Source: Selaginella tamariscina (Eukaryota > Streptophyta > Lycopodiopsida > Selaginellales > Selaginellaceae). From it: 64,000 nucleotides of DNA. The stretch lies in contig PUQB01000035.1 of the NCBI GenBank assembly GCA_003024785.1, forward strand, positions 806,001 through 870,000, written 5' to 3'. Below, piece by piece: positions 40 to 49,039 of the stretch; within the stretch, counting starts at the first letter, position 1; every line of letters starts with the position of its first letter. Under the pieces are notes generated by a model. That model saw only the letters and a list, made by a program, of their open reading frames with translations, did no database searches and had not been told where the DNA came from. A program made the position numbers and the translations under genes.

Positions 40-87
<48 letters not shown>

Positions 88-3500: not shown

Positions 3501-3506
3501 GACAAT

Positions 3507-7103: not shown

Positions 7104-7128
7104 CATGCCCATTTTAGTTACAACTGCA
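7104..7128 (-). repeat. Right terminal inverted repeat, copy 1
   Basis: Reads CATGCCCATTTTAGTTAC then AACTGCA. It matches the terminus at 41107-41132 except that one base before TGCA is missing. The flank begins TACA. Confidence 0.8.
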
Positions 7129-19756: not shown

Positions 19757-20073
19757 GATTATGTTCATAAACGATATCATGTTATTACTTTAGAAGTAAT
19801 TATTGAACCCTAACGTTTAAGGAGGACTTAAATACAAGAAGGTGTAATGTGGATGTATCATTGGAAACTTAAATTTGAGGTATGTTCAAAGTTAATAGTG
19901 GTAACTTCAACTTAAATGTAAAAACAATTTTGTGAGAAGACATGGAATGAGTCTAGAAGTAAAATGAAAAATTCCATAAGAATTCTCTCATTTTAAAAAT
20001 GTTCAAGATGCTCCGATTTTAAAAATGCAATGGTATTTAATAACTTCAAAACTTAAAAAGCATGTTAGAAAAA
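19757..20073 (-). repeat. Left flank of the 21-kb element (block A, inverted copy)
   Basis: Reverse complement of 16195-16512. It ends GTTAGAAAAA directly before the TATA duplication. Confidence 0.8.
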
Positions 20074-20077
20074 TATA

Positions 20078-20103
20078 TGCATGTTGTAACTAAAGTGGGC
20101 ATG
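20078..20103 (+). repeat. Left terminal inverted repeat of the 21-kb element
   Basis: 26 bp, pairs with 41107-41132 with two mismatches. The preceding TATA at 20074-20077 is the candidate target-site duplication. Confidence 0.85.
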
Positions 20104-20364
20104 ATACGTGAAAATGGGAATATAAAATAAATTACTAATTAATACTTAAGTTTTAATTATTAATTAATTATTTAATTAATATGTAATTAAGCCTTAAATA
20201 TTAATTAATTATTAATTAATCCTTCAATAACCTTACTTAGTAAGGAATATTCCTAAAATATCTTAGAATATTCATATTATTTTAAAAATAGTTTATAATA
20301 ATTAAGAAATACTATCAAACATAATTATAAATGAAATCATTTTCTTATCAACATGTTAATTTTT

Positions 20365-21500
20365 TTATAAATACTTTCTTCCTATCATACAGAGAAATCT
20401 TCTCATTTTGTCTAAATCATCACTCTTCGGATTAATTAAATCATTTTGGTCAATATCTTGATGTTGTTGCCACCACCTAACACTCTCACGAATGCAATTG
20501 GGAGTTGCCATCCTTGTTAATACATAAGATGTGATAATAGAAGGTCTACATAAAGACTCATCTAAAAACTGACGTTTCTTAAGAATAATATTATAAAGTA
20601 CCCGGTTGCTATTCTTCATTTTATAAAATTCAAAATCACGAGAAAGAAAAGCTTTAGGAATGTTTGATACGGTGGATACTGCTCACAAAAGTTTTCGAGA
20701 TTCTCTTTCTGAGGCACGTATCCAAGTAGTTTACTAGCTTATCCATCATATCGGTATCAGAATATGAGTCGAAAGTGATTGGATGAATACAAGCAATGTT
20801 TTGGTTGAGCATAGCCTTCTGAGGAGAGTCGTCTACCATTAACATCTGTGCGTTCTTCATTATCCTTAAGCGACTGATCTCCCATGAGTCCCAATTATTC
20901 TCTCATTCTTGAAGAAGTATGGTTTGCTTTCTTTTTTTATATTGTAAAATTCGAGAGGTTTATAACATATTCGTTGGTCAAAAATCCAATCTTTACGAAT
21001 CATCTATTCTGCAACACTACAATGTTTCTTAAGCAAATTCAACAGCGATGTTAAGTTATGAATCTGCATGCATAACCAAATCCCCACAAGCGCACCCATC
21101 TCCTTAAGCTTTTGAAAGAAACGATCCAATCCTGGACGAAAATAATATCATATCAAAATTTATCATGACAATGAATGAAATCTCCTTGTTTGATTTCTTT
21201 TTTCCTATCCTCGGGCCTTTGTCGATGAAGCAGAACACCATTGACATCCAACAACACAATATAGCCATGAGTAACATAGGATAGCGTTGCCTCTTGAATA
21301 CTTTGCAAATCACTTGTTTGCTCCCTTTCACATTTACTGTTGACACTATCTCGTTGCCTATCCCTTTCATTTAATTGTACATCGTCCTTACAAGATTCAG
21401 ATATTGCAGGCGCTGAAGAAATTAATTTCGGAACTGAAGCCAATAAAAAGATGATGAAAAACTGAAGTGGCCCCCATAATAACAATGTTTTGAGCTGCAT
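20365..21500 (-). pseudogene. NIF/FCP1-like HAD phosphatase gene, cargo of the transposon
   Basis: Begins MQLKTLLLWGPLQFFIIFLL, a hydrophobic start that could be a signal anchor, then a polar linker. IVLLDVNGVLLHRQRP near 21230-21265 is HAD motif I of the plant NLI-interacting-factor type (D-x-N-G). IRKDWIF..KPLEF follows, then LMVDDSPQKAMLNQNIACIH at about 20770-20835, the DDSP motif of the same family, and a tail with WWQQHQDID ending near 20365. Frames change and stops occur between about 21160 and 20860, and some breaks may be short introns. Family members remove phosphate from Ser/Thr in proteins; here the activity is only inferred from motifs. It lies 260 bp inside the TIR and on the same strand as gene U. 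A second, truncated copy is at 16533-17460. Confidence 0.7.
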
Positions 21501-21824
21501 TATTATCTATTTCCTACATGAACTCTGTCATTCTGACATGTGGCACAAGAAATTGTCGCCAAACCCCTCTCTTACCTCAAGGCAATGCTGAAAATCCATG
21601 TTCTCAACTGTTTCATTACATTTGCAAAATGGTAGTTAGCTGACCTTAAAATTATCAAGGTATATTATTTACCTTGTTTAATGTGCGACCCATGTTTGAA
21701 CTAAAAGCTTCATTAATCCTTGAGAATTTATTTTATGTACAAATATAAACAAAATATACAAAAATGCCTTATGTTACACTCATTTACAACTATTCGTCAC
21801 TCTAAGAACTCATTAACAATTCTT

Positions 21825-21892
21825 CTTCGCTATTACCTTCTGAGTGAGGCGAAGAAGGTCTAGGCCGCTTGTGAGAGAAGGTAATAGCGAAG
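21825..21892. repeat. 17-bp perfect inverted repeat at the 3' end of gene U
   Basis: CTTCGCTATTACCTTCT at 21825-21841 and its complement AGAAGGTAATAGCGAAG at 21876-21892, loop of 34 bp, overlapping the last codons and stop of gene U. It may result from an inverted duplication of the coding tail; a terminator role is speculative. Confidence 0.75.
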
Positions 21893-22079
21893 AGGTCTAT
21901 GCCACTTGTGAGATGGTTCAAGATCTTCCGTATCTTTTATTAATGTTTCCATGGGTAATGGAGTGTGTGAATGTTCTGTACTCCTCGAGATAACTTCGTC
22001 TTCAGAGCTATCACACTTATCGGGAGGGAACTTTCTCAAATACTCATGTATGGTTTGTTGGGGTAGTCAGTTGAGAACA

Positions 22080-23100
22080 TCTCTATCCACTTGTTCAGGT
22101 CCTCAACCATGGTCTTATCCTTTTCAACGGCAAACACACATGTATCCCAAAGGTAACACTCCTTCAAGACGGATGGTCTTATTCTTTTCAACGGCAAAAC
22201 ACACATGTATCCCTATCCACTTGTTCAGGTCCTCAACCATGGTCTTATCCTTTTTCAAACTTTCTCAAATACTCCTGTATGGGTTTGTTGGGGTAGTCAG
22301 TTGAGAACATCTCTATTCACTTGTTCAGGTCCTCAACCATGGTCTTATCCTTTTCAACGGCAAACACACATGTATCCCAAAGGTAACACTCCTTCAAGAC
22401 GGATGGTCTTATCCTTTTCAACGGCAAACACACATGTATCCCTATCCACTTGTTCAGGTCCTCAACCATGGTCTTATATCCTTTTCAAACTTTCTCAAAT
22501 ACTCCGTATGGGTTTGGGGGTAGCAGTTGAGAACATCTCTATCCACCCATGGTCTTATCCTTTTCAACGGCAAACACACATGTATCCCAAAGGTAACACT
22601 CCTTCAAGACGGATGGTCTTATCCTTTTCAAGGGCAAACACACATGTATCCCTATCCACTTGTTCAGGTCCTCAACCATGGTCTTATCCTTTTCAAACTT
22701 TCTCAAATACTCCTGTATGGGTTTGTTGGGGTAGTCAGTTGAGAACATCTCTATCCACTTGTTCAGGTCCTCAACCATGGTCTTATCCACTTGTTCAGGT
22801 CCTCAACCATGGTCTTATCCTTTTCAACGGCAAACACACATGTATCCCTATCCACTTGTTCAGGTCCTCAACCATGGTCTTATCCTTTTCAACGGCAAAC
22901 ACACATGTATCCCTATCCACTTGTTCAGGTCCTCAACCATGGTCTTATCCACTTGTTCAGGTCCTCAACCATGGTCTTATGCCGTTGAAAACACACATGT
23001 ATCCCAAAGGTAACACTCCTTCAAGACGGATGGTCTTATCCTTTTCAAGGGCAAACACACATGTATCCCAAAGGTAACACTCCTTGAAGGAAGATGGTCT
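22080..23100 (-). repeat. Tandemly shuffled fragments of the gene U coding tail
   Basis: Repeats of three modules: CAGGTCCTCAACCATGGTCT, ATCCTTTTCAACGGCAAACA and GGTAACACTCCTTCAAGACG, in varying order. On the minus strand they read DKTMVEDLNKWI, LKECYLWDTCVFAVEK and YPNKPIQEYLRKF over and over. The single-copy order is seen at 44278-44420. Long plus-strand frames here are artefacts. Confidence 0.85.
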
Positions 23101-23112
23101 TATCCTTTTCAA

Positions 23113-23467
23113 TGGGTCATTTTTTGCCTTTCATAAGACTTGAACCCGAGACCTTTTGGCTAACACACACATATGTTAACCAACTGGTCCGTATGATCCT
23201 GGATACTGAACTACACCATCAACAGCAAGGCATATATTCATACGCATGTTCCAGACCAGTGTGGACCACACATTCCAGACCAGTTGTAAATCACACATTC
23301 CAGACCAGTTGTGGACCATACATTTAGATATATAAATAGGGTTCCAGTTCCAGGTTTCTTAGAATCATTCAACACCAGTCTTCGGCCTTGTGTTTCATTT
23401 TGTATTCATTTCTTTCTTGAATACAATCTCCTTCTTTCTTGAATACAATCTCTTTCTTTCAAGGTTC
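23113..23467 (+). repeat. 5' LTR remnant of the deleted Ty3/gypsy element
   Basis: Matches 25953-26290: CTTGAACCCGAGACCTTTTG, repeated CACACATTCCAGACCAGTTG and a TATATAAATAGGG promoter-like box near 23331. A short duplication of TTTCTTGAATACAATCTC is present near the end. Confidence 0.8.
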
Positions 23468-25019
23468 CACCTCGAAACCTGTTCTTATCCATCCTGACCC
23501 TGTGAAGCCATATTTCGTGGAAGCTGATGCCTCTGACTTCGCCATTGGTGGAGTGTTGCCCCAGGAAGGTCTAGATCATCTTCTCCATCCCATTGCTTTC
23601 CATTCCCGCAAGTTCACTGCACCTGAGATCAACTACGATGTCTATAACAAGGAGCTACTGGCGATCGTCGATGCCTTTGAGGAGTGGCGCAGATTCCTTG
23701 AAGGTTTCCCGCATGTGGTTAAGGTGTATTGTGATCACAAGAACCTCCAGTACTGGGCAACAGCACAAGTTCTCAATCGACGTCAACCGCGATGGGCACA
23801 GTCTTTGTCCTGGTTCCGATACGAGATTATTCATCGTCCCGGTCATCTAAATGGCAAAGCAGATGCCTTATCTCGTCGCAGTTACCTAGCTCCAGTACCA
23901 GGTGAAATCCGATTTGATCAACAAGAACAAGTCATTCTGAGCTCCGACCAGTTGTTGATGAACGCGCTTTCCCGTTCTTCTGCTCCAGTTGACACTTCCT
24001 TTTTGGATCTAATTCGAGAAAATCTCCCTCAAGACGTTTGCTCGTGATGTCCTTGCAGATGTTCGATGAGTTCAGCCATTATTTTCAGGGTCACAACTAC
24101 GAGATTATGCTGCTTTCCATCTTCATAATAGGTTGCTGTACCACCACATCCAAATCTATGTTCCGGACGGAGAATTGAGGTTGCGAGCTGTCCAACATTG
24201 CCATGACAACACAGCTGCAGAACATTTTGGCATTCGAAAGACGATCGAGCTAGTACAACGGGTGTTCTTGTGGCCTCGACTTCGCGTGTATGTTGAGAGA
24301 TTTGTGCGATCTTGTGACACGTGCCAGCGTACAAAGCTTCCTCGTCATTGACCGGTTGGACTACTACAGCCTCTTCTTATTGCTCAGCGGCCATAGTCAT
24401 CCATCACCATGGATTTCCTCACAGATTTACCGCCTTCTAAAGGGTTTGATGCTGTCCTAGTCATTGTTGACCGGTTCTCTAAGATGGCACACTTTGTTCC
24501 CTGCAACAAGACATGTTCGGTCCTGATGCTGCAGATTTGGTGTATCGGGAAGTGTTCCGCCTTCATGGTCTTCCTGGTGAACTTGTCACTGATCGAGGTC
24601 CCCAGTTCACTTCGGCATTCTGGCGGAGATTCCTAGATCAGCTACGTATCACCGGGAAGCTGTTTACTGCATCATCCTGAAACAGATGGACAATCGGAGC
24701 GCACAATTCAGACTCTGGAACAATATCTTCGGTGTTTCATTTCTCATCTGCAAGATGATTGGGTCGATCTCCTTCCTGCTGCCGAGTTCGCGTACAGCAA
24801 CACGGCACACTCATCTATAGGTGTGTCGCCATTTTTCTCGTTCTCTGGTGTTCATCCTCGCTGGTCCTACAGCTTGCCGTGGTTCCTGGCCTCACCACTT
24901 GCCGATGATCGTGTTGAGCATCTCCGACATGTCCATAAGGAAGTGCAACATCATCTTCAACGCGCTCGGGATTTGCAACAACAAGCTGCTAATCGTTCCC
25001 GTTCTTCTCCTCCAGCATT

Positions 25020-25430
25020 CACAATTGGTGACCAAGTGTGGCTCCTCCGACGTCATTGGCCAACCACATGTCCCTGTGACAAGCTAGACTATCAACAATT
25101 GGTGACCAAGTGTGGCTCCTCCGACATCATTGGCCAACCACACGTCCCTGTGACAAGCTGGACTATCAACGCTTGGGGCCATTTCGCATCATCGACAAAC
25201 TCTCTAATGTGACGTTTCGTCTCGAGCTTCCGCATTCACAATTGGTGACCAAGTGTGGCTCCTCCGACGTCATTGGCCAACCACACGTCCCTGTGACAAG
25301 CTGGACTATCAACAATTGGTGACCAAGTGTGGCTCCTCCGATGTCATTGGCCAACCACACATCCCTGTGACAAGCTGGACTATCAACGCTTGGGGCCATT
25401 TCGCATCATCGACAAACTCTCTAATGTGAC
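25020..25430 (+). repeat. Tandem duplications inside the integrase tail
   Basis: About 75-bp unit with ACCAAGTGTGGCTCCTCCGA and CCTGTGACAAGCTGGACTAT repeated four times, some carrying an extra segment to CGCATCATCGACAAACTCTC. Confidence 0.85.
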
Positions 25431-25689
25431 ATTTCGTCTCGAGCTTCCGCCAACCATCCGGATCCATCCCGTGTTCCATGTTTCTTTGTTGGAGCCTTAT
25501 CATGCTCCTTTTGAACCTGGCCGACTTCTTCCACCACCTCCTCCAGTTATAGTTGTTGGTGAACCTGAGTTTGAGGTTGCTGCAATTCTTGACTCCAAAC
25601 TTGTTCGTGGTCAACTTCACTATTTCATGGACTGGATCGGTTATCCACCTGGCGAACGCACTTGGGAGCCTGCTGCTCATCTTGTTCAT

Positions 25690-25890
25690 GCTCCTGGGAG
25701 CTTGCTGCTCATCTTGTTCATGCTCCTGATCTTGTTGCCGAGTTCCATCAACGATATCCTCATCTTGTTCATGCTCCTGATCTTGTTGCCGAGTTCATGC
25801 TCCTGATCTTGTTGCCGAGTTCCATCAACGATATCCTCATCTTGTTCATGCTCCTGATCTTGTTGCCGAGTTCCATCAACGATATCCTGC
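25690..25890 (+). repeat. Tandem duplications at the chromodomain end
   Basis: Units of CATGCTCCTGATCTTGTTGC and CGAGTTCCATCAACGATATC alternate four to five times. Confidence 0.85.
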
Positions 25891-25939
25891 AAAACCTGGA
25901 CCAGTGACGCGCGGTGCTCGTCATTAAAGGGGGAGATAG

Positions 25940-26318
25940 TGTAAGGATCATGGATCATTTTTTGCCTTTCACAGGACTTGAACCTGAGACCTTTTGGCTA
26001 ACACACACATATGTTAACCAACTGGTCCGTATGATCCTGGATATTGAACTACACCATCAATAGCAAGGCGTATATTCATACGCATGTTTCATACCAATGT
26101 GGACCACACATTCCAGACCAGTTGTGGATCACACATTCCAGACCAGTTGTGAACCATACAATCCTTAGGACCTCAGATATATAAACAGGGTTCCAGTTCC
26201 AGGTTTCTCAGAATCATTCAACACCAGTCTTCGACCTTGTGTTTCATTTTGTATTCATTTCTTTCTTGAATACAATCTCCTCCTTTCAAGGTTTCGCCCT
26301 TTGCACAAGGTCGTGACA
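25940..26318 (+). repeat. 3' LTR of the deleted Ty3/gypsy element
   Basis: Begins TGTAAGGATCATGG after the polypurine tract and ends GGTCGTGACA. Gene U coding sequence resumes at 26319. Confidence 0.8.
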
Positions 26319-27559
26319 GTCAAAAACCCACGCATCACTGTGAGGACCCCTGATCAAGTTGACGATGCTTCGTGCTGCTTGACTTGTAATGTTTGGATAA
26401 CGTACATTGCCGAATACGTCACTCTCAGTTATCGGTGTATCGGATGGAGGTTCAGGGCCGTTGGAGTGCAAACAGATGCTTGTCCAATCATTTGGAAGTT
26501 TGAAATTGTTTGGCGCATTCCTAACAACCAAGTGAACAACCGAATCAATGCACTTTGGATCAACATCATTCATATAAAATCCTATCCAACGAAGTTTATT
26601 CCTCTTGGAAAAGGTGAAGGCAAAGGTATCGATGACATGAGCAAGAATCAAGAAATAAATACCTAAAAACGTAGATATCAGTCAAGAGTGCAAGTATGAA
26701 TTCAATAATCAATACCTTCTTTGTACATGCTTGCACGGCTAAGTTTCTCCACCAAATCCTCTAGTGTCCTGTCTGTTGAAGGATTTTTTGACACCCGCCG
26801 ATCCATCACGAACAATTGAAACGGTTTCCTACAAGCAGTGATGGTACCCCATAAAGTCTCCGAATCCAACAACAAACATCTGTAGGGCTTGTCGTGATTT
26901 GTAGCATCCTCCTTTATAAGGTTCAACTCGGTTCTCCGATGCTGAAGGATTACCATAAGAGAATGCGTCATCACAATGTTCTCCTTCTTAGCGTTGGCGT
27001 GCAATAGATTCTTGCCCAGATCTTCCGATTGATTCATCCATTCGACAAGCATATCATCGTTTGTCACATGCAAATATTTCCTGACCTCTTCGTATGTTGA
27101 AGCCGAGGTCCAACCCAGTTTGTGGCAGTGTATTCCCAACCACTCCTTGAAGTGCCTGACCGTCTTCAACTCCATTGCCTTGAGATGAAAAGGAGAGGTG
27201 GGGATGCTGTTGTTAATCTGTAATTTGCCATCAATCACCAAATCAGCTAAGACTTCCATCTCCTCCATCGTTGTTTCATTTAAAGGCTTCAACCATTTGA
27301 GCTTAAAATCGTTATATACATCCTTTATAGATTGAACAGACTTAGACTTCGGCATCTTATTGGGTTTCTTTGAAGACTTCTCTGAGGGCTCCACTTCACT
27401 TGTCTGCTTCTTTTTCAATGTTCCTTTTGCAAAGGATTCCATAATCCCCAACCATTTCGCAAAGATCCTATCCTCGGGACAAGAAATCAACATCATCAAA
27501 AAGGATGTTTCCTTCCCACCCACCTGGGCAAAATCAACTGCTACAATTTCTTCAACTCT

Positions 27560-27623
27560 CTGGAAAAAAAAAAGAGAGATTAATATACCGGCGAGATAAA
27601 TCCCGCCCAAACAATTTGCTTAC
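27560..27623 (-). other. 64-bp intron in gene U containing the transposon palindrome
   Basis: Donor CAG|GTAAGC, acceptor TTTTTTTCCAG|AG. Inside it is GGGCGGGATTTATCTCGCCG (27589-27608, minus strand), a two-mismatch version of the 18-bp palindrome that forms the arrays. Confidence 0.75.
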
Positions 27624-27995
27624 CTGATAGTCCGCAGATTGTGTATTTCCTGCGGTAGCTCTTTGTGGTCGCTGAAGAGATTCCCACATGGCTCGCGTGT
27701 GTTTGAACTTCTCTCATATTTTGTTGTTGTAGTGGTTGGTGTCTGCAGCGTCCCATTCTGCCGATAACTTATGGTACTGCTCGATTGTGAGATTCGGCTT
27801 CGCTAAAAACACCGATCTTTTCGTCAGCTTCTCACGGGTATGCTCGGAAAGTTTTGTTGCCATCGTTCCTTTGTTGTGTTTGTCGAGAAGTCGTTGGGCT
27901 GCCGTTATTGTGTGCTGGCCACTAATGATGTAGTACTTAATTGATTTTTTATTCTCCATCTGAACCTTCCTCATTTGTTCCGGTGTTGTGATCCA

Positions 27996-28408
27996 TGTCA
28001 CAACCCGATACAGGATACAGGATACAGGATACGAGTTACAGGATATGCCTATAGAATATACTTACAGGATATGTCTACAGGATATTCCTACAGGATATAC
28101 CTACAGGATATGCCTGCATGATATTCTTACAGGATATACCTACAGGATATGCCTATAGGATATACTACAAGATATGCCTAAAGGATAAGGGTCACTATTT
28201 TTAACTCATGACCATATTAGACTCATGACCAGATTAGGTTGGAGTTGTGAGTATAAAAGCTCCGACCTAATTGTTGTACAATCAGTTACTATCAACACCA
28301 GTCATTCTACGATCATTCTTGTCTTGTTCCTTTTCTTGTCTTGTTCTTTGCTCTTACCTTATTCTTGAGTCAAGCCTTCTTGTTGTTATCTTGCTCTTGA
28401 TAGTTTGA
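27996..28408 (+). repeat. 5' LTR with ACAGGATAT tandem repeats
   Basis: The first 200 bp is a tandem array of about 14-16 bp units ACAGGATATNCCT. A TATAAAAGC box follows near 28252. The end is placed by comparison with the 3' LTR and is uncertain by some 20 bp because the last bases differ. Confidence 0.8.
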
Positions 28409-28505
28409 TAGTAACTCCTTTCATAGCTTTTCGATTTTCAGCTACTTTTTTTTTTTCTTGATTCTTCTCCTTCGTTTTTCTCCTTTTTTTTTTCTTTCAT
28501 ATATC

Positions 28506-29477
28506 ATGGCCGATTTTGAGCAATTTTTCAACGCGAGCACCAAATATTGCTTCATGAGCTAGCCACTTTGCGCCAAGTGGTCACAGATCTGCAAGGTTCC
28601 ACCAATGCGGCGCATGCAGCTGCTGATGCATCCTCCAAGGCTGCTGCACAGGCTCTCTCTCAAGCATCCGTGATTTCCTTTACATCGAACACTTCTTCGA
28701 AGCCGAAGATTAGCATGCCAAAAAGTTCAATGGCAATCGTGCCATTTCCAAGGGTTCCTGAATCAGATTAGGCTTTTGATCCGCATGCAATCACGCCGCT
28801 ACTCGACTGATGCACAAAAGGTTGCCTTTTCATCCCTACTAGTTGGATCTCCACGGGCTTGGGTTGCCCCTTTGCTGGAATGTGACGACCCATTGATGGA
28901 AGACTTTGAAGGTTTCGTGGCTGCCTTTAAAGCTTGCTTTGGAGATCCCGATAAGTACCATTCCCATGCATGAAGTTACGAAAGCTCACACAAGGACTCG
29001 ACCAACTTCTGTTTATGCATCCGAATTCAGCAACTTTGCACGAACATTCCATGGGACGAGACTGCATTGATTGAACACTTCCGTTTTGGGTTGAGGGATG
29101 ATGTGAAGGACCTTCTCCTTTCGTTACCGGATGCCCAAACATTAGCGGAGATCATGCAACAGGCCGTTCGCTGCGACAACCGCTTGTTCGAGCGTCGTCA
29201 GGAAAAATCCCGTCAGCAGTTCCTGCAAACCAATCCTGCAGCTGTGGTACATACTTCTGCGACACCTTCTGGAGTAGTTCCTATGGAGGTTGAGAAATAC
29301 AAGCGTGGCCCACTTTCCGCTGCTGAGAAGCAACGTCGCCGCAGTGAGAATCTATGTTTGTATTGTGGTGAAGCAGGACACAAGGCGGCGGAATGTCCTA
29401 TTAAAGCCAGGAAGTTCAAGACGCGTGAAGTTGAAGCTGAAGTTCAGTCGGAAAACTTCAATGTTCACTTCGTTTAG
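28506..29477 (+). pseudogene. Ty3/gypsy gag, frameshifted
   Basis: Starts MADFEQFFNASTKYC and is broken within 20 codons, with further shifts near 28770 and 28970. A capsid-like region AFKACFGDP follows, then LIEHFRFGLRDDVKDLLLSL, and a CCHC zinc knuckle CLYCGEAGHKAAEC at about 29355-29397. The zinc knuckle binds element RNA during packaging in this family. Confidence 0.8.
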
Positions 29478-29488
29478 GAGCCACGAAG

Positions 29489-30247
29489 TTGGACGTAGGT
29501 GCAGGCTCCATTGGTGCTGCTCATACCATTCCATCACTCAAGTTTCCTATACACATTCATCTCAATAATCGAGAGCTCAAGGAGTTTGCCCTGTTAGACA
29601 CTGGTGCAAATGCATGCTTCATGGATGACACTTTTGCAACTCAACATGGCATTCCGATGGTGAAGTTGAAGCGTGCAGTTCCTGTAGAGGTGGCCGATGG
29701 TCGTCTGATTGCTTCTGGCGCAGTTACCCATGCTACCAAACCTCTCTCTTGCAGTCATGGCGCATTCAACTGTTCAATTTCCTTCAACTTGATCAAGACT
29801 CGGTCGACTCCCATCATTTTGGGCATGCCATGGTTCGTTGTTGCAAATCCTCAGATCAACTGGAGGTCTAGGACGTTCACGTTTTCCTCTCCGGCAACCA
29901 GGACCAATCCTGTACCTTCCTGTGTGCAGAATACATCCTTAGTGTCTGAGGCAGTACAAGCTACAGGATTGACCGTGCCTGTTCCTGTATCAGTGTTGAA
30001 GACTCCTTCGACAGGATCCACCTCCTATTGGTTCGTCAGCACACTCACAAGTTCTCCTCACTCCTGTGCATCCACGGACTTCTGTACAGGATTCTTCCAA
30101 TCCTGTACACTTGTCAACATCCACACATGTTTCTCCCAATCCTGCCTCTTTTCATTACTCTTCTTCTGTTCCACCCCCAAGATCCTTCCTCTTTTTCAAT
30201 CACAGCTCCCTCCTTCTCCTTTGAGTTCTTACCACTACCATGCATGA
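29489..30247 (+). pseudogene. Ty3/gypsy aspartic protease region plus proline/serine-rich linker
   Basis: ALLDTGANACFMD at about 29589-29627 has the DTGA catalytic triad of retropepsins, and IILGMPWF follows the expected distance later. After about 29900 the frame becomes a low-complexity T/S/P linker with many TCCTGT repeats, and the frame is lost before the reverse transcriptase. Confidence 0.8.
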
Positions 30248-30417
30248 ACTTGCCACTGATCCTGCTCCTTTTCATCTTTTTGCCTTCCAAGTAACTCCTA
30301 CGTCCTCTTCTACCTTTCCTGTATCTGATTCCCCTGTTTTTCAATCTCCTTCTCCTGTTCCTTCTTCTTCTCCTCCTTCTTCCCTGCCATCCAAGTATCA
30401 CTCCTTTCAGAACGTTT

Positions 30418-31740
30418 TTGACAAGCACAAGGCTGCAGTTCTTCCTGTTCACAGGTCCTGACTGTCCTATCGATCTTGTGGAAGGAAAGACTCCACCGTT
30501 CGGACCGATTTATGCACTGTCACCTACAGAATTGGAGGTTCTTCGTCAGTACATCGAGGAAAACTTGGCATCCGGCTTCATTCGTCACTCAAAGTCCCCT
30601 GCAGGAGCACCTATCTTCTTTGTCAAGAAGAAAGATGGGAGTTTACGTTTGGTTGTGGACTACAGAGGTTTGAATCAAGTCACCATTCGGAACCGGTACC
30701 CGTTGCCATTGATCCCGGAACTTCTCGATCGGCTGCAAGGAGCAAAAGTGTTCACGAAGATTGACTTACGAGGGGCTTACAATCTTGTACGGATTCGTCC
30801 AGGCGATGAGTGGAAGACTGCCTTTCGTACAAGGTATGGACACTTCGAGTATACGGTGATGCCTTTCGGACTTACCAATGCCCCAGCCGTGTTCCAACAC
30901 ATGGTGAACGACATCTTTCGTGACTTCTTGGACCAGTTTGTGGTAATCTACCTCGATGACATTTTGATTTTCTCCAAGGACCAGGCGGCTCATGACAAGC
31001 ATGTACGACTAGTCTTACAGAGGCTTCGCGAGCATGGCCTGTATGCGAAGTTGGAGAAGTGTTTCTTCGACAGGGATACTGTAGAGTTCTTGGGCTACAT
31101 CGTCTCTCCTGCTGGCGTTTCCATGGACATGCACAAGGTGAAGACTATCGCGGAGTGGGAGAGGCCCAAGTCTGTACGAGATGTACAATGTTTCCTTGGC
31201 TTTGCAAACTTCTACAGGCGTTTCATACAGGACTTCTCCAAGCGTGTACTTCCACTCACGGAACTCACCAAGCGCACAGGAGTGTTCTCTTGGTCCGACA
31301 AGGCAGAACATGCATTCACAACACTCAAGAACATCTTCACGACAGCTCCGATTTTAGCACATCCTGATCCTTCTCGTCCCTTCTTCGTTGAAGCAGATGC
31401 CTCGGATTTTGCAGTAGGATCTGTTCTATCACAAGTTGGAGAAGATAAGTTGCTTCATCCTGTAGCTTTTCACTCTCGTAAGTTCCTTTCGGGAGATCAA
31501 TTACGAGATTCATGACAAGGAACTCAAGGCCATTGTGGATTCGTTCGAGGAGTGGCGGCATTTCCTGGAAGGTGCTGCGCATCCTGTACAAGTTCTTACG
31601 GATCACAAGAACCTGGAGTATTTTCAAACGGCTCGAGTTCTCAGTCGGCGACAGGCTAGGTGGGCGGAGTTCCTATCACGTTTTGATTTTCGTCTACAGG
31701 CCTGGTTTTCGAAATGGCAAGGCGGATGCATTGTCTAGGC
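30418..31740 (+). pseudogene. Ty3/gypsy reverse transcriptase and RNase H
   Basis: Open to 31515 and continued in another frame to about 31735. RT motifs: SPAGAPIFFVKKKDGSLR, VVDYRGLN, FTKIDLRGAYN, FGLTNAPAVFQ, and the YLDD active site at 30949-30960. RNase H: FFVEADASDFAVGSVLSQ, then after a frameshift near 31500, [14 protein letters not shown]. This is the best preserved part of the element. It resembles the Tf1/sushi-like branch of chromoviruses; that placement is an impression. Confidence 0.85.
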
Positions 31741-33322
31741 GCTCTTACCTTGCACCGACCCCGGGCGATCCTGCATATGACTGTCAAAAGCAAGTGTTGT
31801 TGGGTCCTGATCGACTTCGGCTTGCAGCACTACAAGTTCATCAGGCTCCAGCAGATTCCACACTCCTACAGGACATCCGTTTGCAGTTGGCTACAGACGA
31901 CTTGGCAAGGAATGTGTTTTCACACATTAGTCCTGACATCGCAAGTTCCTCTTCCTCCAGTTCCCGTACAGACTACAAGTTGTTTACCATACAGGACGGA
32001 CTCCTGTATCGGGAAGGTCTCCTGTATGTTCCTGTTGGTGTTTGCTCGTGTGGTACAGGATTGTCATGATACCCCGGCTACAGGACATTTTGGTGTGGCC
32101 AAGACAGTTGAGTTGGTGACTCGCAACTATTGGTGGCCTGGGTTGCGAGGTTTTGTGGACAAGTTTGTACGGAGTTGTGACACCTGCAATAGGTCGAAGA
32201 TGCCTCCACTCTGGTCTTCTTCGTCCTCTTCCTGTTCCTTCTGCTCCTTGGAGATCCATTTCTATGGATTTCCTCACAGATCTTCCTCCTTCTCGTGGAT
32301 TTGATGCAGTTCTTGTTGGTTGACCGTTTCACCAAACAAGCTCATTTCCTACCATGTCACAAGACTGCTACAGGCCAGACAACTGCTGAGTTGGTGATCC
32401 GCGAAGTATTCCGACATCATGGTCTTCCTGAGAGCATTGTTTCTGATCGAGGCCCAATTCATGTCCAAGTTTTGGCGAGAACTTCTCCGGAGTCTACAGG
32501 TTAAAGCGGACCTTTCTTCAGGATACCATCCACAAACTGATGGGCAGTCAGAACGCACGATTCAGACCTTGGAGCAATATCTTCGCTGCTTCATCAGTTA
32601 CCAACAGGACAACTGGTTGGACCTTCTTCCAATGGCGGAGTTTGCCTACAACAACTCCGTTCACGCATCTACAGGCCAGACACCTTTCTTTGCTCTTACA
32701 GGCTACCATCCACGTTTTGACTTTGCTTCCTCTTCTCCTTCTTCTGCTCCTGCAGTACAATCGTCTCCAGCATCTTCGTCAGGTACATGAGGATCTCCGG
32801 GTTCATCTTCAGCAGGCACAGGAACGGTACAAGCATTATGCTGATGCTCATCGTCAACCGGCACCTACATACAAGATTGGTGATCTCGTGTGGCTTCTTC
32901 GTCGGCATATTCGCACCAACAGGCCTTCTTCTAAGTTGGATTTTCAACGATTGGGCCCTTACAGGATTGCGGCTAGGTCAATCCTGTAGCTTTCCGACTC
33001 GAGTTACCATCTACGGTGAAACTTCATCCTGTGTTTCACACTTCTTTGTTGGAGCCGTATCATCCTTCTTCTCTTCTTGGTCGTGCTTCTTCTCCTCCCC
33101 CTCCTGTGGTCATTGACGGTGAACCTGAGTATGAAGTTGCAGCCATCCTTGATTCTCGTCTTCATCGCCCAACTTCAATACTTGGTGGATTGGAAAGGTT
33201 ATTTGCCTACCGATCGCACTTGGGAACCTGCATCCAACTTACTCCATGCTTCTTCCAAAGTTGCTGCTTTCCATCGGCATCCTGCTAAACCAGGTCCCAA
33301 GACTCGTGGAACTCGTCCTTAG
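31740..33322 (+). pseudogene. Ty3/gypsy integrase with C-terminal chromodomain
   Basis: HHCC zinc region ([22 protein letters not shown]) near 32080-32205. Core: [15 protein letters not shown] near 32320, VSDRG near 32440, GQSERTIQTLEQYL near 32545. Then the GPYRI fold near 32955, and the chromodomain at about 33120-33270 ([12 protein letters not shown], then [18 protein letters not shown] in the next frame). At least four frameshifts separate these parts, so no active integrase is made. Confidence 0.85.
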
Positions 33323-33330
33323 GGAGGTGC

Positions 33331-33722
33331 TGTCACGACCGATACAGGATACGAGTTATAGGATATGCCTATAGGATATACTTACAGGATATGCCTGCAG
33401 GATATTCCTACAGGATATGCCTATAGGATATACCTACAGGATATGCTCAGATATTCCTACAGGATATTCCTACAGGATATGCCTATAGATACTACAGGAT
33501 ATGCCTAAAGGATAAGGGTCACTATTTTTAGCTCATGACCATATTAGACTCATGACCAGATTAGCTTGGAGTTGTGAGTATAAAAGCTCCGGCCTAATTG
33601 TTGTATAATCAGTTATATCAACACCAGTCATTCTACGATCATTCTTGTCTTGTTCCTTGTCTTGTCTTGTTCTTGAGTCAAGCCTTCTTGTTGTTATCTT
33701 GCTCTTGGGTCGTGACTTGACA
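33331..33722 (+). repeat. 3' LTR of the full-length Ty3/gypsy element
   Basis: Starts TGTCACGACC after a purine tract AGGGAGG. It has the same ACAGGATAT array, shorter than in the 5' LTR, then TATAAAAGC near 33579. Confidence 0.85.
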
Positions 33723-34894
33723 ATCCACACTTTGTCAGCGCCTTTGTTTCTCTCGTAGTATGCGCACAAAATAGCATTATGTGGAATGGTGTAAGAATTG
33801 TCGTCCTTCATCTTCTCCATGAGCTCAGCTACACGTTCCTGGTTGAGTGGCCTGTAATTGAAGTTTGGGCTGACGCTACAATACTTAACCCTACACTCGT
33901 AAATCCTATCATCCAACATCATTTCCTTGTGGCTTATTGCAGCATGGGATGCCACAGGTGCAGCTGACAAAACGATCGAGGGTTTTCTTCTACGATCCGA
34001 ATCAACATGTGTGATCCCCAATTGATGTTCTCGACACACTCTTCAACTCCCAAAATTTTCTAAGCAAATTGAATGTGATCTGTAAAGAACTGAGACCAAG
34101 CCACCCTCTCAATCTCCCTTATGATGTCGCTGTGTTCTTCTTCAATGTGAAGAGGGACGATTGCTCCACTTGTGGATTTTCTGTATTATGAAGCAATCTC
34201 TGCTGAGAATACACCTACTCGATGAGTCTGAAGATCTTCGAAGTAGACATCCAGTTGGATCCCCTCCATAGATGGGCTTTCGTTGAGTTGAAGAAGAACT
34301 CTACGATCAACATCATTAGTGAACACGTGAACGTCATTATCCACAAGTCGACAAGACCACCCCAAATTAATGTTGTAACTGGCGACCTTTGGATCCGAGA
34401 ACGTGAAATTGGATGGAACAAGGCATATGTGTCGAGCATCATTCAATCTGGGTTCGTAGCATGCTTTCGGATGCTTGACTAGCACACCCACTTTTCATTG
34501 TTTTACTTATCCATGCGATGTGACAGAGGTTAGTTTAACAGCAACCATGGTTGTTCCAATGCGCTTCCCATTTAGTTTGAAATATGGCCAAGTTGATTCC
34601 AGAATCCCCATGCCCATCTCTTCTCCTGCTCTCGTCTTCAATGTCACCTCAATTCCACATCTGAATACAAAAATGATTAATTCTTCAAACACATATCCGA
34701 GTATAACAGATTTTATTTTAATTTTCACCCAGAATTTGACGACGACTCCATACTAATGACTTGATCTCCTTGTTTAATTAAATCGTCCTTCTGCAAAATG
34801 ATACACTATGAATACAAATCATATAAAAACGCACACACACTTGTATAAACCCAAATATATAAAATAATACACAGAGAGAAGTGGACGGAATTAA

Positions 34895-34977
34895 CTGTCC
34901 AAAGCTCACATTTGTGCTAGTGCAAAAGAAAAATAACATTTCGTTTTAGAACCACCACAAATGTGAGCTCTGGACAG
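34895..34977. repeat. Hairpin with 22-bp arms left of the palindrome array
   Basis: Arms CTGTCCAAAGCTCACATTTG (continuing TG) at 34895-34916 and its complement at 34956-34977, one mismatch, 39-bp loop. A second version at 56629-56697 keeps a 16-bp perfect stem with a diverged loop. Both lie between gene U and a palindrome array. Confidence 0.85.
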
Positions 34978-35093
34978 TTTTACATAAATTCCTAGCTTTT
35001 ACTCGAAATATTATGATAAGATGATAAAAGTAAATAAAATGAGATATGCAACTTATATATACTAATACACATATATATTCACATGGAAGGTGC

Positions 35094-35986
35094 ATCGGGA
35101 TTAATCTCGCCACCCCTTCAATGCCTCCTGAAAGAGTGGGCGGATTAATCTCACCACCTTTCTGGAGGCCCTGAACGGGAGTGCGGGATTAATCCTGCCA
35201 CCCTTCTCGGTCTCAGAGAGAACTTGGCAGGATTTATTTGGCACACCCCTTCAGTGGCTCTAGAAAGGCGGCGGGATTAATCTCGCCCACCATGTAAGGG
35301 ATGGTGAAATGAATCTCACCACCCTTCCCAGTCCCCTCCATTGGTATGTTGTAAACCTTCTACATCTTAAACAAAAACGTTTGGGATTGGTCCGAATCAC
35401 CAATAGAGAAAAAAGGGAAGGGTGGCGGATTTATCCCTCCAACAGGCATTGAAGGCTCGGCGAGATTAATCTCGCCACCTAGGCCCTTCACTCGGGCCCT
35501 AGGTGGCGAGATTAATCCCGCCGGACGCCAATGCCCTACGCGGAATCGGGCGAGATTAATCCCGCCGCCTAGGCCCTTCAGGCAGGCCTTTGGCGGCGGG
35601 ATAAATCCCACCCGATTCCGCGCAGGGCATGCATACGCGGCGGGATTAATCCTGCCACCCAAGCCCTTCACTCGGGCACTAGGCGACGGGATTAATCCCG
35701 CCGGACGCCAATGCCCTGTGCGGAATCCAGCGGGATTAATCCCGCCACCTAGACCCTTCAGACATGCCAATGGCAGCGGGATAAATCCCACCGGATTTCG
35801 TGCAAGGCATGCGTAGGCGGCAGGATTAATCCAGCCGCTCATGAGGTTAACCGAATAACCTACCTGAAATGGCAGCGGGATTAATCCCGCCGCTCATGAG
35901 GCTAACCGAATAGCCTGCCTAAAGGGCGGCGGGATTAATCCTGCCGCCAAGGGTCTAACCATATAGCGGCGAGATTAATCCCGCCG

Positions 35987-35987
<1 letters not shown>
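35094..35987. repeat. First (outer) palindrome array of the 21-kb element
   Basis: About 20 versions of GGCGGGATTAATCCCGCC at roughly 40-46 bp spacing. Spacers here are a different set, rich in AGGCCCTTCA and GCCAATGCCCT, from the GACTCTCTCC spacers of the array before the transposase. The outer part is decayed and the inner part (35460-35987) well preserved, with a higher-order repeat of about 180 bp. It runs straight into the CA microsatellite. Confidence 0.9.
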
Positions 35988-36032
<45 letters not shown>

Positions 36033-36489
36033 GTATATATATATGTATATGTGTGTGTAGGAGAGTGCGTGTGTGTGCCAGAGATAGACAAATCAGATAA
36101 AATTATACTGATACACACACACATATGTATATGTATATGTATATCATATGTGTGTGCTAAATAAATCAAATTATACAGATACACACACACACACACATAT
36201 GTATATGTATATGTATATACAGGAGTGTGCGGGTGTGTGCGAGAGATAGATAAATAAATAAAATTATACAGATACTGGTACACATAATATATGTATGTAT
36301 ATATGTACATAGGTATATATAGTGTGTGTGTATATGTATATTGTGTGTATCCGTGTGTGAAACAAATAAAATCATACAAATAAACAAACACACACACACA
36401 CACACACATATATACAGGAGTGTGCGTGTGTGTGCGAGAGATACAATTAACAAATCAATAAAATTATACAGATACACACACACACACAC

Positions 36490-36542
<53 letters not shown>

Positions 36543-36770
36543 GATGTATATGGGTGTGTGTGCGTGTGCAAGAGATAAAATTAATAAATTAATATAATTA
36601 TACAGATACACAAACACAAACACACACAGATATATATATATATATCTGTGTGTGCGTGTGTGTGCGAGAGATAGAGATCTAAATTATATTATTAAGATAC
36701 ACACACATATAAATATATATGTGAATAAAAATAAATAAATAAACTCAGGAGTGTGCGTGTGAGAAAGAGA
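35985..36770. repeat. CA/TG and TA microsatellites
   Basis: Alternating (CA)n, (TG)n and (TA)n tracts joined by GAGAGATA and ATTATACAGATAC phrases. Same relative position as 1-400. Confidence 0.9.
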
Positions 36771-37149
36771 AAGAGAGATCTCACCTGTGTGTGAGAGAGA
36801 GAAGGAGATTTCATAGCCGCCGCCTCCGCCGCCTTACTTCTTGAAACCCTAAGAATATACTAAAACCCTAAAAAGAATAGAATATATATTAACCCTAATC
36901 GAATATTCCTTCTAAGAATATACTTAAACCCTAAAAAGAATAAACTAAAGATTTGCCCTAAATGAATATTCTTTCATTATATTATCAGCGTGTGCGTGTG
37001 CGTGGGTGTATCACATACACCCCAAGAATAAAAATCATGCAGGGGTTTAACATGTGTGTGTCCATGAGAATGTTAAAGTTTCACGTGCAGCAATACATAT
37101 ATACACACATAGTATTATACACATAGACATACATACATATTAGTACATA

Positions 37150-37740
37150 TTAATATTAGAGAGACAGAGTACAGGATCATGCATGGTGTGTATGTATGAG
37201 AGAAGAGTGACAATACATATTATGGATCATGCATGGTGTGTATGTATGAGAGAAGAGTGACAATACATATTATGGATTATGCATGGTGTGTATGTTTGAG
37301 AGAAGAGAGATAGTACATATTAATATGGATCATGCATGGTATGTATGTATGAGAGAAGAGAAAAAGTGTTAACAAATTAAATTCATACACATTGCATATA
37401 TTAATACACACATATACAAACACACGTGTATACACACAGACATACATACATATTACAAGTGTAAATTCAATGTGTTGCATAGGGTTTAGGGTTAGGATGG
37501 ATCATGCATGGTGTTTATGTATGAGAGGAGTGAGTGTTAATATACACAGATATACATTATACATATTACATAATATTGTAACATCAGTACATATTATGGA
37601 TCATGCATAGTGTGTATGTATCAGAGAAGAGACAGGCTACATATTATGGATCATGATCATGCATGGTGTGTATGTATGAGAGAAGGGATTATGCATGGTG
37701 ACACTGTATATGTATGAGAGAAGAGATAGAATGTTAACAA
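37150..37740. repeat. Expanded GATCATGCATGG repeats
   Basis: About eight imperfect units of GGATCATGCATGGTGTGTAT plus GAGAGAAGAG. A degenerate TTTAGGG tract at 37481-37495 lies among them. Confidence 0.8.
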
Positions 37741-38029
37741 ATGAAAACCGTACACATTGCATATATTAGTACACATATATACATACACACGTATATACAC
37801 AGACATACATATATATTACATGTGTAAATTCAATGTGTTACATACACACAGATTGAGTATATATAGATCATACATGCGTTGAACATGATGTTTTTCAATA
37901 AAGAAGCAACATATAATTTCTCAAGTTTGGTTTAGGGCAATGTGCATGTGTGTGCATAGGTGTCTTTGTAAGTGCTTCTAATGCATGTGCACGTGTATAT
38001 ATAAATTTATGATTGTGTTTATATATATG

Positions 38030-39360
38030 TGCAAAACAAACATCGAATAATTAAGAAAATAATATTAATAAACACACTATGAACATATTTTAAATTATAC
38101 ATAATAATATATGATTTTATTTAATATATAGCCATATATAGTTTTAATAATATATATTAATTTAATATTGATAATAAGGTTTAACATTAGAATATTCTTG
38201 AAATAATAAGAAATTAATTGAGAAAATCTCATTAATATATACAAATGTAGATCAAGTACTGAAATAATTAACTAAATTAATTATGATAATCATGTTTAAT
38301 ATTGAAATATTCTTGGAATAATAAGAAAATAATAAAGAATATGGCATTAATATAAAGAAGATTAATTACTCAAGTAATTAAGAAAATGATATTAATACAC
38401 ATTATGAACATATTTTAAATTATACATAATAATACATTATTTTATTTAATATATAGTCATATATAGTTTTAATAATATATATTAATTTAATATTGATAAT
38501 AAGGTTTAATATAAGAATATTCTTGAAATAATAAGAAATTAATTGAGAAAATCCCATTAATATATACAAATGTAGAATGATTACTGAGATAATTAAGAAT
38601 AAGACTAATTTAACTATGATAATCAGGTTTAATATTGGAATATTCTTTGAATATTAAGAAAATAATAAAGAATATCTCATTAATATTAGGAAATGTAAAT
38701 TAATTACTCGAGTAATTAAGAAAAATAATAAAATAAACAGACTATGAATATATTTTAAATGATACATAATAATATATCAATTTATTTATTGTATTAGTGT
38801 ATATATATATATAATATAAACTTAATAATATATACTTGAATATTAAGAATGTAAAATAATTACAAAAATTTCATAATATTAAACAGCTTGAATCACTTGA
38901 ATGACATTAAATGCAATATTAAAACACTCATTGGAATTGGAGAGTATATATGTCAGACTGTCGGTTATTTGTTTCAACTCATCTTAAATTTTTTTTTCTG
39001 TTATTTCAAAAATTTTGAATTTCTGACATAAGTATTGTCAGTCTGACATGTAAATTTGAAAATGCATTTAATTTCCCACTCAAATTCAGATCTGGTTCTT
39101 TCTTTGGCAAGGGTTTCTTTATTTCTTTATTTTTCACTCTTCAGATTTTCTTTTTTCTTCTTAGTGATCAGCTCAGGAGCGACATTAAATTAAATGCGCT
39201 ATTGTTTATAAGAACACGGCGCCTTCAATGCTATTTATAAGTAAGTATTATAAACAAATTTAGATATATTTATAAAGATTCACTCTATTACATTCTCTCT
39301 TAAATTTTAGAATTTAAGGATTTAGGAATGCATTAGGATTACAATATGCTGTTAGGGATT
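38030..39360. repeat. AT-rich internal block (copy 3)
   Basis: Counterpart of 1230-2560, with the middle sub-block in the opposite orientation to copy 1. It contains the exon-like segment and donor near 39178-39243 and no gene. Confidence 0.75.
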
Positions 39361-39404
39361 TATCCCGTTTAAATATACTTCTAACTTAATATTCTCGGTT
39401 AGTT

Positions 39405-39960
39405 GGGGCGGCGGGATTAATCCGGCCATTTTTTTTTTGCCTCTTCGAAGAGGTGGCGGGATTAATCCCACCACCATCTCTTTAATAGCTATGACAGAAT
39501 TAGTCCGGATAATGCTTCTCTGTCTCTTAAAAAGAGTGGCGGGATTAATCCCGTCGATAACTCTCTCAATTGATAAAGAATTACTTGAATTTATTAGAAA
39601 GAATTATTTACGGGATTAATCTCGCCAACCATTTTAGGAGGCAGAGAAGGGGTGGCAGGATTAATCTCGTCACCACTTTCCTGTTTTAAATATTTGTGGG
39701 CAGGATTCATCCCGAATCTCTTTGAAATCATAGTTTCGGAGAGAGTTGTGGGCGGGATTAATCCCGCCGCTTATTCCCCGTCGTCAGAGTTGTGGGCGGG
39801 ATTAATCCCGCCGCCTATTCTCCATCGTCAGTGTTGTGGACAGGACTAATCCCGCTGCCTATTCTCGATCGTCAATGTTGTGAGCAGGATTAATCCCGCC
39901 CCCTCTTCCTCGTCGGAGGGATTTGCGGCGGGATTAATCCCGCCAACTCTCACCGACGAG
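39405..39960. repeat. Second palindrome array (copy 3)
   Basis: About 12 sites, with moderate decay. It ends at the deletion junction. Confidence 0.85.
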
Positions 39961-39972
39961 GAGATTGAAATG

Positions 39973-40620
39973 AGGTTATTATTGATGGCATCAAAAAATA
40001 TGTGGCATGGGTTCAAAAATCGATGCCAAAGAATTCTGATAAGGCAACTGGTTACTCAGAACTATATAAGCATGTGGTTGACTATTGGGAGACTGTTGTT
40101 CGAGAGTTGGAAGGGCCTACTGTCACAAGTACAGAATTGCAACACCCTTTTTGGCCTAAAACAAGGTGGCGAGAGGAGATTGAAATGACATCACTGAGCA
40201 CATACGACATAAAAGCCAGTAGTGATGTGGAAGTGCAAACCCCACACTTTGTTAAACAAAGGAACCAAAAACCTAAAGCATACTTTTTGTTGCCAGGATC
40301 TTCAAAAACTAATGATGCTTCTCATTACTCCAGATGCGTCATATAATCAGCCTATTTGGATGGGTCAAATTATCGACACATCTGAAGTAATCACAAAAAA
40401 TAGTATTGTTAAGGTTGCATGGTTCAAACCACAAAAAAGGCGACACGAGAAGGAGAGTGAAAGATATAATGGATGCCTAGAGAAAACATGGTCTCCCAAT
40501 CAAAAAGACCCAGCATGTTTTATAAATGTTAAATCCATTCGATATGGGTGGATGTCAAGAAGCGTTGATAAAGTCACAATTAACAAAACTGCAAGGGAAT
40601 GTATGTTTTCTGAAGCTTAA
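39973..40620 (+). pseudogene. C-terminal remnant of the DUF7869-type transposase
   Basis: Reads from VIIDGIKKYVAWVQKSM through LQHPFWPKTRWREEIEMTS to WMSRSVDKVTIN..FSEA. One shift occurs near 40288. It lacks QMDNC and HTHEDID, so it cannot be catalytic. It preserves the base missing at 6452 in copy 1 and therefore shows the natural C-terminus. Confidence 0.85.
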
Positions 40621-41106
40621 AGCAATTACAAAATTATAAAATATCATATATTTAATATTCATAATTATTATAAACTCTTTAATAATAGTACCAAATTGTT
40701 TACTTAACTATATAAATTTAAAAAACAATATGGAAGATTGACTATATTATTATAGGATTTTGTATATTATATATATATTATTACTACTATTAATTTTTAA
40801 TTAATAATGTTATATTTAAATATTAATATTTTAATAACAACATCAATATTTATATAATGTACCTCTTATGCTCTTCCTTAATTGTTATATTAAGCAATAT
40901 ATTATATAATTTAATACTTTCTACTTTTATAATGTTATTAATTTTTGTTCAATGAATGTTATAATTTATTAAAGGGTCAAATACAAAATAGATATTCTAA
41001 AGAATATTCTGTTTTCAAATATATATTCTAAAGAATATTCTTTTAATATTAGAAAATGCTAATTAAATAGCTAAAATTGCTAATTATTAGGAAATGGGAC
41101 TATAGC

Positions 41107-41132
41107 CATGCCCATTTTAGTTACAACTTGCA
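41107..41132 (-). repeat. Right terminal inverted repeat of the 21-kb element
   Basis: Pairs with 20078-20103. It is followed by TATA at 41133-41136, then TTATTGCAAT of block C. Confidence 0.85.
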
Positions 41133-41845
41133 TATATTATTGCAATGCATATAAGTTCTTATTCATTACAAATAAAGTTTGGACGTATTATTAATGTACT
41201 GAGAGAGAAACGACTATATATATTATGTGTGTCTCTATGTATGGTATCTATTTCTTAAATTTTATCTAACGGCCATTCTAAATTGCCTCGTTAACAACCA
41301 TCTTAAATCCTATCGTACAGCCATCTTAAATCGTACATGTGTATCATTAATATATATTAACAACCATCTTAAATTCTAAACATGCATGGCACCATCCTAA
41401 CTACTAGACCATGCATGGCATGATATATATGTCATACATAAATTTTAAATGTGTGTTAATGACCATTCTTAATCGTATTGAATTGCCATTGTAAATTCCA
41501 TTAGTTAGTTATCTTAAATTTTATTTAACGATTATTTTAAATTTAATTTAATTATTATCTTAGACTTACGAAATTAAAATGGACTAAGGGTCTAACTTGG
41601 AAAAAACTTAAATAATAACTGGAATTAGTTCTAATTAGTTCTAACTTTATTAACCAAAACGAGATTCACCCACCATAACTATGTAAATATAATATGTAAA
41701 TAAATAAAATAATTTCCACAATACAAAAGTGTTTTGCAATATTAAAAGTAAGTATTAATGTAAGGAAGAAGAATATTCCACATAATAATGTATGTGAAAG
41801 TATAAAAATTAGATACATAATAGAATATTTATAACTCAAGAAAAT
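41133..41845 (-). repeat. Right flank of the 21-kb element (block C, inverted copy)
   Basis: Reverse complement of about 15505-16190, including the degenerate CCATCTTAAAT repeats and ACCATGCATGG. An extra GCAT is present just inside (41146-41149) relative to 16180. Confidence 0.8.
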
Positions 41846-48990: not shown

Positions 48991-49039
48991 TAAACATTAT
49001 TGATTTCTGGTGATCTCTCTGTGAATCCCCTCTCTCTCT

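Follow-up and report, generated by a model that had tools for sequence, protein, structure and literature searches.

A damaged 21-kb copy of an abundant giant DNA transposon in the genome of Selaginella tamariscina

Among giant DNA transposons that carry genes besides that of the transposase, the description of Sola1-1_Ec32 from Ectocarpus reports an accessory gene with ParB-like and N4C/N6A methylase domains, and nested transposable elements are said there to be usual in such giant families (PMC12477816). Sola2 elements are stated to duplicate 4 bp of target (PMC3627910), and the CMCT clade (EnSpm, Transib, Plavaka, ESTA, and Lanisha) is said to be characterized by a C(2)C motif between the second D and the last acidic residue. 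The locus considered here lies in a window of 64,000 nucleotides, the whole stretch of DNA analyzed, from Selaginella tamariscina (contig PUQB01000035.1, positions 806,001 to 870,000, forward strand). Positions 20076–41134 of this window constitute element D, a copy, no longer intact, of a giant DNA transposon that is abundant in the genome and measures ∼15 kb when complete; other copies are designated by the letters A, B, C, E, and F, or by the contig that carries them. Overall, the best explanation, and a probable one, is that D belongs to a family of giant cut-and-paste DNA transposons and is itself defective, and it is close to certain that the family constitutes a mobile unit that duplicates TA at its target. 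The limits of D and its target are:

15502 to 16500, minus strand: paralogue in which the target repeat is unbroken (empty site), from alignment of the D flanks
20074 to 20075, no strand: left copy of the TA target-site duplication; a single TA is left in the empty-site comparison
20076 to 20103, plus strand: left terminal inverted repeat (TIR), 28 bp, starting TATGCA
41107 to 41134, minus strand: right TIR, 28 bp
41135 to 41136, no strand: right copy of the TA duplication, from the empty-site comparison

The original prediction had placed the ends at 20074 and 41136, with TATA on each side and 24 of 26 terminal positions alike, and this is what the sequence contains; once the TA at each tip is included, 26 of 28 positions agree. 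Such ends and TATA alone prove little, since TATA reads the same on both strands and inverted family copies abound in the window, which holds 1923 non-low-complexity 26-bp inverted pairs (≤2 mismatches). Many of these pairs, in an uncounted share, stem from long inverted family copies, and each of 10 order-2 Markov shuffles yielded none. The decisive facts for D as an element are its empty sites and the co-occurrence of both ends throughout the genome. Element D lies within a repeat that is uninterrupted elsewhere in the window, as had been claimed, the left flank (19766–20077) and right flank (41137–41842) being adjacent in the inverted paralogue at 16500–15502 (94% identity over 312 bp on one side and 84% over 735 bp on the other). 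Alignment of flanks to paralogues yielded empty sites for three insertions, namely D (in the window), C462 (one C36 site), and C528 (39 places listed, five of them fetched), and at each junction 2 bp are missing relative to the prediction for a single TATA. The duplication is therefore read as TA rather than as the 4-bp TATA of the original prediction, which the three sites reject together with the hint at Sola elements drawn from it, and a TA duplication with ends TATGCA...TGCATA is the simplest reading of the empty sites. TA flanks both ends in seven of nine paired copies. The 30-bp flanks differ beside the right ends of A, B, C, and D and beside the left ends of D and E, so the element boundary is real.

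The 1-kb target repeat (15502–16500; 41842–41137 plus 20077–19766) adjoins family fragments in both of its places in the window, that at 41845 being from the transposase gene and that at 16518 from the phosphatase gene, and D therefore seems to be nested in an older relative. The C528 copy is inserted inside other copies of its family, and its empty sites include a place within the paired C91 copy.

In the genome assembly (300.7 Mb, 1391 contigs), 2127 matches to the left-end pattern and 1878 to the right-end pattern were counted at ≤3 mismatches, and the reversed patterns that served as controls have none. Pairing was assessed on the left ends listed (100) and on 81 of the right ends, of which 100 were listed as well, the other 19 (beyond contig C172) having been dropped because the left-end list stops at that contig; the sample, entered by hand, comprises exact matches only and is thus biased to young ends. 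A listed left end in convergent orientation lies within 30 kb of 46 of these right ends, against seven in the same-strand control, and for 32 the distance is 13.6–15.3 kb, so that left and right ends do co-occur in the genome-wide check at 30 kb that had been proposed. A left end is present at nine of 15 predicted places, once with an altered tip. A rough extrapolation (32/81 of 1878 ends, at 14.7 kb each) would give ∼11 Mb of near-complete copies, which is probably too high because it is based on exact, hence young, ends. Part of the candidates was scored in the genome searches, 40 of 648 for right ends and 150 of 4249 for the DUF7869 domain described below. All 20 fetched right-end stretches (20 of the 40 listed; 9.6–9.8 kb each) match the transposase side of copy A, and 13 of them reach the 5′ part of an accessory gene, here termed gene X. 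The exact TIR pattern had no match in viral contigs. The right-end flanks on C504 and C444 (L020, L029) are identical, a sign of duplicate or haplotype contigs in the assembly.

A complete copy, C471 (L024, L031, L032), is 14,955 bp long, has TA on both sides and, like D, is bounded by inverted repeats that agree at 26 of 28 positions. The pieces of D are collinear with it at 82–97% identity, and D differs by a deletion in the transposase gene and by two gypsy-like elements:

23112 to 26318, plus strand: nested gypsy-like retrotransposon 1, with an RT_RNaseH domain and a long terminal repeat (LTR) match; 5′ end unclear
27996 to 33722, plus strand: nested gypsy-like retrotransposon 2, with ATCCA flanks on both sides, inserted in an exon of gene X

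In the family layout, the transposase gene is read in the direction of the right end. On the opposite strand, gene X and a NIF-like phosphatase gene are read in the direction of the left end; both accessory genes belong to the transposon family. The two retrotransposons, the gypsy label of which is suggested by their domains (protease, reverse transcriptase, RNase H, and a Tf2-1-like SH3), account for ∼8.9 kb of D and are absent from C471 and from the collinear copy C453; the LTRs of the first (23112–23438 and 25950–26287) are 91.7% alike. Of the predicted 21-kb cargo-carrying transposon, the TIR-bounded unit with accessory genes therefore stands, but the nested ∼8.9 kb is not cargo: the notion that the whole interior is D's own was rejected, the reverse-transcriptase genes belonging to insertions without counterpart in C471 and C453. 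The non-transposase genes and palindrome arrays predicted for the interior are present, as is DUF7869 sequence from the predicted transposase-like gene, which in D is reduced to a 3′ remnant and has its open frames in C471. The claim of a little-described lineage is plausible.

Similarity between A (5975–7130) and D (39972–41134) is 96.7% in contrast to 88% in the adjoining region, and since D thus looks like a mosaic, produced by recombination or conversion, no date was taken from its right end. Other copies are rearranged or interrupted as well. Copies A (1–7129) and C (57338–64000) are inverted with respect to each other, ∼96–97% alike over long stretches, and run off the window; in copy F, at 44286, gene X passes straight into a DUF7869 fragment in the same orientation, and a third LTR retrotransposon (45274–55155; LTRs of ∼1.7 kb, ∼90% alike) interrupts its gene X; and the copy on C523 (L018) has a relative of gypsy-like element 2 after the transposase sequence.

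The transposase gene is represented in D and A by:

39972 to 40620, plus strand: 3′ remnant of the DUF7869 transposase gene in D (tblastn 39969–40175; match to copy A)
3507 to 6484, plus strand: DUF7869 transposase gene of copy A, with a GT-AG intron at 5443–5496 and the HDKMD, LQMDN, and GHTHEDID motifs kept

The rest of the gene is missing from D relative to copy A, and the 3′ limit of the remnant was taken from a frame at 40213–40620, the end of which reads like the end of the C471 protein. In copy A the stop at 5443–5496 is intronic and the gene is still not open throughout, and in C471 it is open, with frames of 660 and 392 amino acids on either side of the intron. Among 54 homologues, many of them shorter than the full protein, HDKMD occurs in all, an LQLDN-type motif in 44, and a GHTHxDxD-type motif in 31; in all 31 that hold the three motifs, the second and third D are 40 positions apart (39 residues between). 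With this D-D-D pattern, DUF7869 is very probably the transposase, putatively of the DDE/D type with an RNase H fold. In the genome it had 300 matches that were scored, none of 14 control genomes gave a signal, and one pattern scan of viral contigs revealed no confirmed relative. In a midpoint-rooted tree, A (with C) falls among unnamed environmental proteins, with Riccia proteins and P0043 as the sister group. Selection was assessed by the ratio of nonsynonymous to synonymous substitution rates (Ka/Ks) against a null in which the same substitutions were redistributed at random, relatedness and gene conversion being outside the model. For the transposase gene, Ka/Ks is 0.35 between A and B (null 0/1000; shifted frames 0.57 and 0.73) and 0.39 between C471 and B (null 0/1000).

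The accessory genes in D are broken, and their parts are:

20368 to 21506, minus strand: NIF/FCP1-like HAD phosphatase gene, broken in D (PF03031 in C471 and in a composite of D)
22029 to 23112, minus strand: tandem repeats, a putative expanded 3′ part of gene X (Tandem Repeats Finder, and BLAST to 44286–44422)
26319 to 27995, minus strand: middle part of gene X, with a 305-codon open frame and a GT-AG intron recognized by eye
33723 to 34760, minus strand: 5′ part of gene X, ParB-like by eye, with no significant profile match

The phosphatase gene is a 403-aa open frame in C471, where PF03031 scores well above the Pfam cut-off (E = 2e-11; 44.3 bits vs. 21.8), and the composite from D, with X at the breaks, reaches 25.6 bits. 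Its Ka/Ks is 0.38 between C471 and E (null 1/1000). Gene X, on the strand opposite the transposase gene, runs leftward, with introns recognized by eye. It has the lowest ratios, 0.24 between D and F over 453 codons (shifted frames 0.97 and 0.72), 0.16 between C471 and F, and 0.19 between C471 and D, each with a null of 0/1000, and the selection tests thus favor constraint on the family genes. By eye, gene X contains a ParB-like stretch (PLNQERVAELMEKM ... IISGQHTITAAQRL) and a methylase-like stretch (VFD.C.KGSVLKEC...CVFAVEKD), labels that profile and BLAST searches did not support. They are nevertheless taken seriously because Sola1-1_Ec32 is described with a ParB-methylase gene opposite its transposase, and it is somewhat more likely than not that gene X is ParB-like. 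The phage MM1 methyltransferase, a C5 enzyme, was considered as a yardstick for gene X and not used.

Palindrome arrays lie beside the gene starts:

35094 to 35985, no strand: palindrome array 1 of D, upstream of gene X, 16 copies of GGCGGGATTAATCCCGCC
39410 to 39944, no strand: palindrome array 2 of D, upstream of where the transposase gene would lie, 11 copies
2623 to 3354, no strand: palindrome array of copy A, upstream of the transposase gene, 15 copies

At ≤4 mismatches, as in these counts, the 18-bp palindrome GGCGGGATTAATCCCGCC occurs 76 times in the window and not at all in 10 shuffles; every occurrence is within a family copy (A 15, B 8, C 19, D 28, F 6), and none is in the window's three retrotransposons or in the flanks. 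Neighbors are mostly 40–46 bp apart. In A, B, and C it is the transposase gene that has an array upstream of it, and in D and F it is gene X. The 18-bp core is conserved at 82–100% per position and neighboring positions at 32–68% (71 of the 76 hits, ≤3 mismatches), which is partly by construction because hits were picked for their match to the palindrome. Of the 20 fetched stretches, 19 hold 10 to 43 palindromes (≤2 mismatches), and L018, which is interrupted by a retrotransposon, holds none. One IMG/VR contig has a single exact copy (L002:146–163). A CACTA-like role as subterminal sites for the transposase is disfavored, the arrays being ∼3.8 kb from the right end in A and C471 and beside gene starts. 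Binding of the arrays by the gene X product is a possibility entertained with some reserve.

These features suggest a scheme in which the DUF7869 transposase would cut at TATGCA and insert at TA, with D having been moved by transposase supplied by relatives. The gene X product might bind the arrays in a manner resembling ParB and parS, and may modify DNA or regulate both gene sets, and the phosphatase could aid expression or host interaction. As a tentative proposal, held with low confidence, DUF7869 elements would represent an unnamed giant superfamily targeting TA with a segregation- or silencing-like device of its own. A ParB-type and methylase-like protein would bind the palindrome arrays that precede each of the two divergent gene sets and, together with a phosphatase, would enable the element to mark its DNA and regulate it. 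Being 15 kb long and having ∼2,000 recognizable ends of either type in a genome of 300 Mb, this cut-and-paste element differs from the usual transposase-only element, and two further, apparently constrained genes beside the transposase are unusual. If gene X does bind and mark the arrays, this would constitute element-encoded control of the element's own chromatin.

Several observations weigh against this interpretation. Gene X is spread over several frames in C471 and is not intact in any copy seen; a ParB or methylase match to it was not found in searches of Pfam, PHROGs, NCBIfam, PDB, phages, and plasmids, and a search for relatives of gene X found none. The palindromes are hardly better kept than the spacers between A and D (0.92 vs. 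0.87) and worse kept between F and B (0.81 vs. 0.91). The transposase comparison of A with F is weaker (Ka/Ks 0.43, null 39/1000; shifted frames 0.51 and 0.63), and for the phosphatase gene neither D vs. E (0.48, null 201/1000; shifted frames 0.90 and 0.51) nor C471 vs. D (0.44, null 101/1000) departs from the null. With regard to mobility, no left end was found at six of the 15 predicted places; C530 and C444, among the nine paired copies, have no matching TA flanks, and neither do C453, with its altered left tip, and the left tip of a second C453 copy, both outside the nine. Every fetched right end was selected by a query starting with TATA. When the joined flanks of the nine copies were searched, contiguous matches were obtained for C462 and C528 alone among the matches listed, which were filled by the C528 repeat (40 of 2696 candidates scored) and leave the other seven copies undecided.

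Among alternatives to the preferred reading of D, the one that survives best, while being unlikely, is that the family is a giant IS630-Tc1-mariner relative with a D-D-D transposase and TA targets. The TA duplication at the three insertions and the 39 residues that separate the second D from the third in all 31 proteins are as expected, plant mariner elements being of the DD39D type, but Pfam at E ≤ 10 reported DUF7869 as the sole family for the two C471 frames, with no close homology to Tc1/mariner DDE domains, and a protein of ∼1,000 aa in two frames within 15 kb that holds two more genes is unlike these elements. It is less likely again that D belongs to Sola1 as a giant element like the 21.5-kb Sola1-1_Ec32. 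Sola1 elements duplicate 4 bp. Their listing for the moss Physcomitrella (PMC9033089) and the ParB-methylase gene of the Ectocarpus element would favor this placement, and the 2-bp duplication at the three insertions, vs. 4 bp in Sola2, argues against it.

About as improbable is a place in the CMCT clade, for example as Lanisha or as ESTA, which also duplicates TA. Weak similarity of the N-terminal part to Transposase_23 (TNP1/En/Spm) points in this direction below the cut-off (E 0.1 and 0.019), but the ends are TATGCA, not CA, and C(2)C occurs in none of the 31 proteins, given the putative assignment of the triad. Maumus, McDaniel, and Carey, who proposed Lanisha, work on a moss. Slightly less probable still is that gene X and the phosphatase gene are hitchhiking cargo, copied passively, as could be read from the two non-significant phosphatase comparisons and from the state of both genes, broken in D and, for gene X, not in a single frame in C471; the three gene X comparisons (0.16–0.24) and the phosphatase comparison of C471 with E speak against it. 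That D was put together by chance from separate elements lying between two ends with no relation to each other, a thought suggested by the abundance of TIR-like pairs and inverted copies in the window, can be dismissed in view of the empty sites, the paired ends near 14.8 kb genome-wide, and the collinear complete copy.

The D family, which is left unassigned to a superfamily, may already stand in Repbase under another name, Lanisha included. Lanisha is a proposed cut-and-paste superfamily (Maumus, McDaniel, and Carey, Repbase Report 2020) said to share C(2)C and H(3-4)H after the second D, of which C(2)C was not found in the D family. The fungal KDZ, EnSpm, Plavaka, and other elements with TET/JBP genes likewise carry a potential DNA-modification gene, although they have other transposases, termini, and, except for ESTA and PHISTA, duplication lengths (PMC12730594). 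Sola1-1_Ec32 is like the D family in being giant (21.5 kb) and in having an accessory gene opposite the transposase (PMC12477816), whereas the D family duplicates TA and has ParB and methylase labels unsupported by profiles. A phosphatase gene and palindrome arrays are present in the D family. The same domain occurs in other DUF7869 (PF25273) proteins, for example from the liverwort Riccia sorocarpa, and the Riccia proteins listed have 31–35% identity over 60–96% of the query. These homologues share the HDKMD, LQLDN, and GHTHxDxD motifs with the family transposase and are named merely hypothetical or uncharacterized, a literature search on the word DUF7869 having found no paper, and through the comparison with the D family this uncharacterized domain gains a concrete likely role.

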